The notes under the pieces: model-generated | Databases searched by the model: none | Told to the model about the DNA's origin: nothing | Seen by the model: only the letters and a program-made list of their open reading frames with translations | Virus record (IMG/VR): IMGVR_UViG_3300031785_000063 | Location: 1 to 21,842 of that record | From: a virus | Strand: one strand, 5' to 3' | Length of the DNA stretch: 21,842 nt | Made by a program: the position numbers and the translations under genes | Shown: positions 109 to 2,676 of the stretch, one piece after another | How positions within the stretch are numbered: position 1 is the stretch's first letter | Layout of the letters: each line of letters begins with the position of its first letter

Positions 109-353
109 AAGACGATCTTGTTTTCTTTAACGATGTGTTTGAAACCCTTAACAGTCTAGACTGTGAGTTCAAGTCTGTGGAGGATGTTGATATACAAAAA
201 TGGTTTAACAAAATATTTAAGGATGCTGAGAATAAAAAAAGCAAACTATCAGAGCTTGATCTAACCGTTATAGCTAATCTTTATGTGATGTTCTCAGTTC
301 ATCAAGAAAAGAAAATTCAAGAGATAGTATTCTGTAACGACACTATCCACTAA
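105..353 (+). CDS. Small acidic hypothetical protein, last plus-strand gene
   Basis: An 82-residue protein rich in Asp, Glu, Lys and Phe, with no signal peptide or membrane segment, so probably a soluble cytoplasmic protein. The ATG overlaps the preceding stop (ATGA) and a GAGGA motif lies about 8 nt upstream, both supporting this start. Its last 11 bases overlap the end of the minus-strand nuclease gene, so the two transcription units converge here. The sequence begins MKDDLVFFNDVFETLNSLD and has an amphipathic pattern compatible with an all-helical fold. I recognise no family. The context suggests an early or middle gene, possibly a small accessory protein of replication or host takeover, but that is a guess. 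Confidence 0.72.
   Translation: MKDDLVFFNDVFETLNSLDCEFKSVEDVDIQKWFNKIFKDAENKKSKLSELDLTVIANLYVMFSVHQEKKIQEIVFCNDTIH
323..347 (-). terminator. Weak inverted repeat at the convergent gene junction
   Basis: GATAGT (323-328) and ACTATC (342-347) can form a 6-bp AT-rich stem with a 13-nt loop, spanning the end of the minus-strand nuclease gene. On the minus strand it is followed by a T-rich but interrupted stretch. It could be a weak terminator for the late transcript, but stem and T-tract are both poor, so this is tentative. Confidence 0.22.
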
Positions 354-768
354 GTTTGACTAGCTTCCTATTTGCCAAGTGAGCCTTCTTAATATCCTTC
401 TTAGACTTACCATGATATTCAACTGCGTGATGGTTTTTGAGAAGCTCTTTACAAAGCCACTTGCTACCTACCTTTATATCAGCAAGCCATCTACCGTATT
501 TACCTTTTTCATACGTTCTTAGGGTAACCTTAGAGCCTACTGGAGAGAACGCTTTGACAAACTCTTTTGCTGCAAGACCGTATTTTTTCTCTTCCAAGTT
601 TCGAGTGCGAGATTCTGGAGTGTCGATTCCATTAAGACGCAAACAAATACCGCGCCCAGTATCACCACGATTAACAACCCCAAAACCCAAATTGATGTCA
701 GTAACATACATCGTATCTCCATCGACTATTTTGGATACCGTAGCAGTAAAGATGTACGGATTAGACAT
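343..768 (-). CDS. Staphylococcal-nuclease-like (thermonuclease) protein
   Basis: A 141-residue SNase-fold protein, expected to cleave DNA or RNA in a Ca2+-dependent way. The key motifs are in order and correctly spaced against staphylococcal nuclease: VDGDT at 15-19 (Asp18 for Asp21), Arg44, GIDTPE at 47-52 (Asp49 for Asp40, Glu52 for Glu43), and GRWLAD with Arg93 for Arg87. The active site therefore looks intact. No signal peptide is seen, so it probably acts in the cytoplasm or after lysis. The ATG overlaps the endolysin stop by 8 nt, making it the last gene of the late/lysis series; its TAG end runs 11 nt into the convergent plus-strand gene. Possible roles are host DNA degradation for nucleotide recycling or removal of released DNA at lysis; the sequence does not decide between them. 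Confidence 0.9.
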   Translation of the reverse strand: MSNPYIFTATVSKIVDGDTMYVTDINLGFGVVNRGDTGRGICLRLNGIDTPESRTRNLEEKKYGLAAKEFVKAFSPVGSKVTLRTYEKGKYGRWLADIKVGSKWLCKELLKNHHAVEYHGKSKKDIKKAHLANRKLVKLSG

Positions 769-1204
769 ACTTACCTGTACGGATAATATCTGTTAGCTCT
801 AAGCTTCTGCCTTTAACTTGTTTAGCCCATCTGCTGTCTAGAAACTCTGTTGCAGCAAGGTTATAGTCTGCCGCTTCCATAGCAGCAATAGCTTTCTTAA
901 ATCCTCTAAACCTTGTAGCTCCTAAATTAAAAAAGATATTTATTATCGCTTCTTGTCTAACTTCATCCAAAGAACCAAACCATTGATACTCTGAACTCAG
1001 CTCTTTAATGCACCTAAGAATATCATTAGACAAAAGGTACTCGATCTCTTCCATTGACAAACCTATACCTGTCTTGGATATGTTTCTGCCTACACCTATG
1101 TGCTCCAAGTTATTTATATCTTTATAACAGTATGCGGAAACACCTTCATGTCTTTTTAATTGCTCTATTAGTCTGTCCATTTTATTCATCAATACCATAT
1201 CCAA
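761..1204 (-). CDS. T4-type lysozyme (GH24) endolysin with His at the Thr26 position
   Basis: A 147-residue protein of GH24 phage-lysozyme type that would cut the glycan strand of peptidoglycan at lysis. The catalytic region HEGVSAYCYKDINNLEHIG matches T4 lysozyme: Glu20 (T4 Glu11), Asp29 nine residues on (T4 Asp20), then position +15, which is Thr26 in T4 but His35 here. The later IINIFFNLG and FLDSRWAKQVKGRSLEL segments fit the C-terminal helical lobe. There is no N-terminal signal or SAR segment, so it needs a holin, which lies just upstream. The start is uncertain: a TTG at 1204 has AAAAGG 8 nt upstream, but in-frame ATGs at 1198, 1189 and 1180 are also possible, and the last would give a T4-like N-terminal length. 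The 3' end overlaps the nuclease start by 8 nt. Confidence 0.9.
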   Translation of the reverse strand: MDMVLMNKMDRLIEQLKRHEGVSAYCYKDINNLEHIGVGRNISKTGIGLSMEEIEYLLSNDILRCIKELSSEYQWFGSLDEVRQEAIINIFFNLGATRFRGFKKAIAAMEAADYNLAATEFLDSRWAKQVKGRSLELTDIIRTGKYV

Positions 1205-1216
1205 AAACTGCGCCTT

Positions 1217-1687
1217 TTATTTCTTACTTGACGATCCGTAGAAGAAAGCCGCAGCCGTACCAAGTATACCACTTAGCTGACCGAGTACGAGCGAGATAAC
1301 AGTCTCAGACTGTTGCGAGTGCTCGAACAAGGTGACAACCATAACATACGATCCATAAAGCAGCAGAGCTAAGATAGAAAAAACTTTTGGAGTCCAATCT
1401 GTTCCAAAAGATTCTCTTGCTGACTTTCTATCCTCTACCTCAGTCTTAAAAGATTCTAAATCAATCTCCATTTCTCTAATGCGATTTTTGAAGTCTTGAT
1501 CTGCTTGCTTTACTAATACTGCTTTTTCTGGTTCGCGTTCTATTAAATCTTCTATTTCATTAGCTGTTGTATTTTCAGGAAGTCCTAACTTAGATGCTGC
1601 CATCTTGACCGCCATGCCAGCCATTGGGCCGCCAGCAGCAGAGGCTATGGTTGGGGCTAACGATTTTAATAACCCGCCTAGTTTCAT
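1217..1687 (-). CDS. Holin of the GTA/3-TM type
   Basis: A 156-residue membrane protein. The N-terminus LAPTIASAAGGPMAGMAV (10-27) is the small-residue hydrophobic segment typical of the 3-TM holin family also found in gene transfer agents. A charged, probably coiled-coil region follows (about 45-92), then two clear membrane segments at about 102-121 and 130-149, and a short tail ending SSSKK. The role is to permeabilise the inner membrane at a set time and release the endolysin encoded next. No good Shine-Dalgarno lies just before the ATG; AGAGG is about 30 nt upstream, with a CACTT/AAGTG mini-hairpin (1702-1715) between them, so initiation may be deliberately weak or coupled to upstream translation. 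Confidence 0.85.
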   Translation of the reverse strand: MKLGGLLKSLAPTIASAAGGPMAGMAVKMAASKLGLPENTTANEIEDLIEREPEKAVLVKQADQDFKNRIREMEIDLESFKTEVEDRKSARESFGTDWTPKVFSILALLLYGSYVMVVTLFEHSQQSETVISLVLGQLSGILGTAAAFFYGSSSKK

Positions 1688-1730: not shown

Positions 1731-1940
1731 TTACTTTCCCGCAGAGTCTTCCTCCACGATTTCATCAATGGTTGTACACACATCTGGAATCGCTACACCT
1801 GTCGTAACTTCAGTAGCTACCCTGCCAACAGCTCTAATACCTTTGTACACTCCAGAACAATACAGCTCTTTATTTGCTATCATCTCTTCAGAGACTGTGC
1901 AGCCAGCCATTAGTAAACACAACGCAGCAATTCTAAGCAT
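1731..1940 (-). CDS. Small predicted lipoprotein in the lysis block
   Basis: Read from the ATG at 1940, this is a 69-residue protein with a compact signal peptide and a lipobox-like MAGC, giving Cys14 as the predicted lipidated residue. The mature part is about 56 residues with two further cysteines (in ELYCSGVYKG and IPDVCTTID) that could form a disulfide. The frame stays open for 12 more codons upstream, but GAGGAAA lies at good spacing from 1940 and the shorter form starts directly with the signal peptide, so I prefer it. It overlaps the end of the lipase gene by 8 nt and precedes the holin. It could act at the outer membrane during lysis, for example as an o-spanin-like protein, but no partner i-spanin is recognised. 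Confidence 0.78.
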   Translation of the reverse strand: MLRIAALCLLMAGCTVSEEMIANKELYCSGVYKGIRAVGRVATEVTTGVAIPDVCTTIDEIVEEDSAGK

Positions 1941-2676
1941 TTCGTTTCCTCTTCTTAGTTTCCAACAATTCTTCACCTAGTTTCTTGTTTGGTTTTTTTT
2001 CTTGATCGTCTAAGAAACCTGTTAACCTTTTTTTGTACCCTTCCATAAAGTGATCTGAGATAGCATCTGCTATACGCCTATCTTCATCTCTAGTAAGTTT
2101 GTCAGGGTTTACAAAGTCCACACCATTGTTACCAAAGTATAGCATTGTTTGCGATTTGCTTGGACCGTAGCAAAGGCGCGGTATCCTAGCTATCAAATCC
2201 GATCCTTGTACGCACGATATTTGATTATCAAGGGTAGTCATAGGTTGCTTAAAGCCTTTGAAGAAAGTATTAGGCTTACCAAAGGTTATAAGGTTAAGGT
2301 TAGAATGTTTTTTCCAAAGCTTGGCTGCTGTAAGCTCTGCTAACGCACCTCCTAAGCTGTGTCCACAGATCAATGTGCGTTTATCTAGGTCTATGTATCT
2401 CTGTAATCTTTTCCATATCGACTTGTGAGCCATAGCAAAGCCGCCATGACAAAGCCTTCCTGCATAGGGTACAGGTACTACCAGCGCGTCTGTAAGCCAA
2501 TCTAGCTTCTGCTCAGTGCCTCTGAATGCTATTACGTCTATAGTCTTGCGTTTTGCAATATAAACAGTAGTTGAAGTCCATTTAGACTCTATCTTTGTAG
2601 TATCTTCTACAAACTTTCTGTAAGCCTTCATGCTCCAAGAGCAAGCCATTTTTAGCAATACAGGGTCTAGCTTCAT
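1933..2676 (-). CDS. Class-3 (alpha/beta-hydrolase) lipase
   Basis: A 247-residue protein of the lipase class 3 family, predicted to hydrolyse ester bonds of glycerolipids or phospholipids. The nucleophile elbow is GHSLGG at 105-110 (Ser107); the acid is probably Asp160 in QGSDLIARIP and the base His209 in AISDHFMEGY. The FRGT motif at 51-54 fits the family's oxyanion region. The triad therefore looks complete. The C-terminal 40 residues are very basic and charged. No Sec signal peptide is evident, so the protein would need the holin lesion, or lysis itself, to reach the envelope. It follows the membrane coiled-coil protein (its ATG shares one base with that gene's stop) and overlaps the lipoprotein gene by 8 nt. 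The context suggests outer- or inner-membrane lipid disruption at lysis, but that is inference. Confidence 0.88.
   Translation of the reverse strand: MKLDPVLLKMACSWSMKAYRKFVEDTTKIESKWTSTTVYIAKRKTIDVIAFRGTEQKLDWLTDALVVPVPYAGRLCHGGFAMAHKSIWKRLQRYIDLDKRTLICGHSLGGALAELTAAKLWKKHSNLNLITFGKPNTFFKGFKQPMTTLDNQISCVQGSDLIARIPRLCYGPSKSQTMLYFGNNGVDFVNPDKLTRDEDRRIADAISDHFMEGYKKRLTGFLDDQEKKPNKKLGEELLETKKRKRNA

Follow-up and report, generated by a model that had tools for sequence, protein, structure and literature searches.

The window analysed here is the whole stretch of 21,842 nucleotides of the IMG/VR virus record IMGVR_UViG_3300031785_000063 (positions 1 to 21,842), and close to its beginning lies a lysis cassette on the minus strand, in the order transmembrane protein, lipase, lipoprotein-like ORF, holin-like protein, endolysin and nuclease-like protein. 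The genes and the catalytic codons of the endolysin are as follows:

3176-2676, minus strand: transmembrane protein, a member of the cassette
1933-2676, minus strand: class 3 lipase with the motif GHSLGG (PF01764, 65.6 bits; phrog_21992)
1731-1976, minus strand: small lipoprotein-like ORF with the lipobox LLMAGC, overlapping the lipase gene (read from the sequence)
1217-1687, minus strand: holin-like protein with two C-terminal hydrophobic segments (phrog_1544, function unknown)
761-1204, minus strand: endolysin, 147 amino acids from a TTG start
1147-1145, minus strand: endolysin Glu20, codon GAA, the general acid, aligned with Glu11 of T4 lysozyme
1120-1118, minus strand: endolysin Asp29, codon GAT, equivalent to Asp20 of T4 lysozyme; the column is always Asp in His-type and Asp or Cys in Thr-type enzymes
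1102-1100, minus strand: endolysin His35, codon CAC, equivalent to Thr26 of T4 lysozyme, in the second strand of a beta-hairpin
343-768, minus strand: staphylococcal-nuclease-like protein, directly downstream of the endolysin (PF00565, 46 bits; phrog_452)

The same neighbours flank endolysins of the Glu-Asp-His, Glu-Asp-Thr and Glu-Cys-Thr types in related contigs, so that the endolysin of the window most likely has the usual role of an endolysin. The holin-like phrog_1544 protein adjoins this type of endolysin in many contigs, and the small lipobox ORF is also kept beside it in related contigs, where it is a possible candidate for an outer-membrane spanin. A class 3 lipase stands beside related endolysins in many contigs and might act on the membrane at lysis, and the staphylococcal-nuclease-like gene is likewise conserved in related contigs. 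None of these neighbours was found within the available stretch of other His lineages such as L090, L105, L119, L136, L153, L169 and L192.

The endolysin sequence LKRHEGVSAYCYKDINNLEHIGVGRN lies within the minus-strand ORF 1204-761. In a Pfam profile search, PF00959 (GH24) is hit with 35.5 bits, above its cut-off of 22.3; the protein also matches phrog_7 (endolysin), and its identity as an endolysin is supported by 80 viral relatives. A phmmer search against PDB chains matched it to T4 lysozyme chains at 1e-12, and the alignment runs from 12 to 45 without gaps and places His35 on Thr26. The three catalytic positions therefore keep the spacing of Glu11, Asp20 and Thr26 in T4 lysozyme, as the earlier note had proposed, and the verified codons occupy exactly the interval 1100-1147, from the Glu20 codon through the His35 codon. 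Alternative ATG starts occur at 1198, 1189 and 1180, and the true start is likely to be the ATG at 1189 or 1180, since conservation within the family begins at about residue 6-9 (M6, M9); the number in "Glu20" depends on the start codon chosen, and the +9 and +15 spacing is independent of it. Every aligned homologue with residues at the Glu20 column has Glu there. Asp29, at +9 from this Glu, is one of the two residues, Asp or Cys, expected at this position in GH24, while at +15 the usual Thr or Ser, which the Pfam definition does not require, is replaced by His35. Because the enzyme agrees with the family in Pfam score, in fold and in both remaining catalytic residues, it is treated here as an active-site variant of GH24 (PF00959). 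In the T4 reference genome NC_000866 (L342:604-1098, minus strand), residue 12 of the lysozyme is Arg, whereas the aligned PDB chains of T4 lysozyme have Gly.

The AlphaFold2 model of the endolysin (pLDDT 96, pTM 0.83) has a helix at 2-12 that ends at Glu12, followed by strands at 15-20 and 26-29 that form the beta-hairpin of the cleft, and it places His35 on the second strand of this hairpin. Searched against the PDB, the model has its best fold match in 1qt8 (T4 lysozyme T26H), which agrees with the ungapped alignment in making His35 the equivalent of Thr26; 1qt8 was absent from the best 50 PDB matches of the model of L049, a Thr-type relative that matches T4 lysozyme as well overall as the model of the window enzyme does. 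The 1qt8 match mainly shows that His35 and His26 coincide in the structural alignment, and does not establish function. Both the His-type and the Thr-type (L049) models superpose on T4 lysozyme with a TM-score of about 0.63-0.66 and an rmsd of about 11 Å, so that either the arrangement of the lobes differs from that of T4 lysozyme or the alignment mixes the lobes.

The frequency of His at this column was then read from alignments and motif scans. Among 80 viral relatives aligned with the window locus, 27 have His and 50 have Thr, and 3 more Thr were misaligned: the three apparent Arg residues at the column stem from an insertion ("RLT") around which the alignment is locally wrong, the true residue being Thr. 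His is present in all of the close contigs (L001-L011 and L030) and in the nearest relatives at 92-99% identity, and the agreement of these near-identical contigs excludes a sequencing error or frameshift as its source and bears out the CAC codon and secure frame of the earlier note. The same note had guessed that further GH24 members carry His, and 88 distinct relatives do so, using both His codons and keeping Glu and Asp invariant. An IMG/VR scan with the strict motif EGx5YxDx5[any]IGxG, in which the Thr26 column was left free, gave 77 Thr, 2 Ser and 1 His among the 80 matches listed, and in the GRN subclass, with the Asp column also free, there were 78 Thr, 1 Ser and 1 His among the 80 listed; the same single His contig appears in both samples, which puts the share of His at about 1%, with a wide error. 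His as a common GH24 residue is ruled out by this proportion of about 1 in 80 among the matches listed. As judged from the sequences, then, His35 is real and uncommon.

When 84,980 genomes of bacteria and archaea were scanned completely with the His motif, 9 matches resulted, among which L320, L321, L323 and L326 hold GH24-like ORFs; L083 and five genome loci were excluded as chance pattern matches without a GH24 ORF. The His-type GH24-like ORFs of L321, L323 and L326 come from a Deltaproteobacteria MAG, a Gammaproteobacteria MAG and Helicobacter anseris. The His lineages come mostly from uncultured phage contigs: searches with several of them found no cultured phage relative at 60% identity or more, and 13 relatives from cultured phages (L329-L341) have Thr or Ser at the column and His in none. 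No report of a natural His at the Thr26 column was found in the part of the literature that was searched.

Across all aligned loci, the Thr26 column holds only Thr, Ser or His, and His is thus among the very few residues tolerated there. The change between Thr (ACN) and His (CAY) takes two base changes, and neither intermediate, Asn or Pro, was seen at the column; that only Thr, Ser and His occur despite this gap argues that the column is not drifting, and the unseen intermediates suggest that the change is quick or proceeds via recombination. His occurs on GH24 backbones that are clearly distinct (among them L119, L142, L153, L136, L128, L105 and L169), and 9 of ten proteins, nine of them His-type and one the Thr control L049, passed a Pfam check, the exception being L323. 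On a weakly resolved tree of 172 GH24 representatives, Thr and His interchange at least 16 times. In the subfamily of the window endolysin, for which a tree of 59 sequences and an outgroup was built with loop columns omitted, His requires 5 changes, with well-supported branches forcing at least 4 of them, and the grouping of all His sequences in one clade was rejected (p-AU 0.0009). Thr and His have thus replaced each other repeatedly.

His is linked to the residue at the Asp20 position. The initial His scan had demanded Asp and was hence unfit for testing this link, so the scan was repeated with the Asp position free. Among distinct sequences of the same motif class, the ratio of Asp to Cys at this position is 88:0 with His and 75:72 with Thr, so that none of the 88 distinct His sequences in the Asp-free scan combines His with Cys; after clustering, the counts are 16:0 for His vs 40:44 for Thr (Fisher p 4e-5). 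On the tree of the motif class, Asp and Cys interchange about 24 times and His changes about 8 times, and a tree-aware independent-pairs test points in the same direction, at 2.8 to 0, numbers too small for significance. The apparent exclusivity of His with Asp is an observation new here. The T26H T4 lysozyme of Kuroki's 1999 work was reportedly active without Asp20, and if this holds, natural His sites would depend on Asp where the engineered one does not, and may not simply copy it. About half of the Thr-type enzymes of the GRN class carry Cys at the Asp20 place, as in the P1 type (for example L333 and L341), and the enzyme of L330 (Shewanella phage ZP9) is Glu-Cys-Ser.

Several known systems can be compared with the window enzyme. 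The T26H mutant of T4 lysozyme (PDB 1qt8, 5xpe and 5xpf; Kuroki, Weaver and Matthews) shares its His column, its Glu/Asp spacing and the GH24 fold, but that enzyme is engineered, whereas the window enzyme is natural, shorter and only about 25% identical to it. The Glu-Asp-Thr lysozymes of GH24 (T4, P22, P21, DLP12 and LysF1) have the same fold, the same Glu and Asp, the same E(x8)D(x5) spacing and the same role in lysis, but their third residue is Thr (or Ser) in all published structures, in contrast to His in the window enzyme; published descriptions also give Thr or Ser at the third catalytic place of GH24 (PMC8228626; PMC5674055). P1 Lyz and its relatives (Glu-Cys-Thr) represent another natural change of the same catalytic set, and this type occurs in the same cassette, but there it is the Asp that is altered, and Cys was not seen in combination with His.

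It has been reported that Thr26 holds the catalytic water of T4 lysozyme in position and that the engineered replacement of Thr26 by His turns the enzyme from an inverting into a retaining one (PMC2976769). The reading that we prefer, with a confidence just under even, is that the window encodes a working GH24 muramidase with Glu-Asp-His in place of Glu-Asp-Thr, in which His35, supported by Asp29, acts as the nucleophile and gives retention with some transglycosylation. The fold, the equivalence of the column, the recurrence and the His-Asp linkage rest on sequence and model, and the placement and attack of His35 are inferred. The imidazole of His35 would occupy the alpha face of the sugar in subsite -1, where Thr26 of T4 lysozyme holds water, and with Asp29 beside it would attack the anomeric carbon, the leaving oxygen receiving its proton from Glu20. 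Release of the glycosyl-histidine by water or by a sugar hydroxyl would then yield a product of retained (beta) configuration, along with some transglycosylation. Asp29 may steady the positive charge on His or on the oxocarbenium, a role that would account for Cys never being seen with His. This retaining route is favoured by the ungapped match to Thr26, the place of His on the hairpin strand, 1qt8 as top match for the His model only, the switch caused by T26H in T4 lysozyme, the recurrent change between Thr and His, the column that does not drift and the occurrence of His only with Asp. The same strict retention of Asp also counts against it, as it is unlike the T26H enzyme, in which Asp20 is reportedly dispensable. 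Further points against it are the superposition of both models on T4 lysozyme at a TM-score of only about 0.63-0.66, the small size of the tree-aware test, and the repeated swapping of Thr and His inside one cassette, which would also suit two equivalent routes to the same inverting reaction.

Alternatively, His35 may take over the role of Thr26, holding the nucleophilic water and, together with Asp29, activating it, so that the reaction stays inverting and the swap is nearly neutral; this is a quite possible reading that ranks close behind the retaining route, and sequence cannot decide between them. Asp always stands beside His, as would be the case if it stays the base, Thr, Ser and His all have water-holding side chains, and repeated swaps within one cassette and one subfamily fit interchangeable ways to the same reaction; however, the same swap in the T4 scaffold gives a retaining enzyme (PMC2976769), and Thr-type enzymes fare well with Cys, so that a need for Asp only with His suggests a new demand made by His. 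It is improbable that His35 marks instead a shift in substrate or in another property, such as the pH optimum or a modified or partly acetylated peptidoglycan, with chemistry secondary. Such a shift would suit lineages that are mostly uncultured and lack a detected cultured relative at 60% identity or more, and the residue two places beyond the catalytic Asp does differ between the His and Thr sets, but that difference is confounded by descent, and the Thr26 position touches the catalytic water rather than a side group of the sugar. Chance or decay, that is, a dead or dying active site or an error in the sequence, is very improbable: the rarity of His is the sole point in its favour, whereas near-identical contigs agree, the 88 distinct sequences use both codons with invariant Glu and Asp, and the ORFs are intact within a conserved lysis cassette.

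Taken together, Glu-Asp-His is a new and recurrent active-site variant of the known GH24 family. The CAZy scheme treats mechanism as constant within each family, and a stereochemical switch within one family is thought to be rare. At the residue that switches T4 lysozyme from an inverting to a retaining enzyme, close relatives show natural and repeated variation, some of the Thr and His enzymes being 75-80% identical and occupying the same operon slot. On the retaining reading, phages would repeatedly have evolved an Asp-His-dependent retaining lysozyme in nature, and the family would toggle between inverting and retaining by one residue within one cassette, a proposal made tentatively, as somewhat short of an even chance. 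The matched natural Thr/His pairs make it testable whether a glycoside hydrolase family changes its mechanism in the wild, and the exclusivity of His with Asp offers a second lead, also testable, on the workings of such a site; the natural Glu-Asp-His enzymes may also supply natural transglycosylating muramidases.
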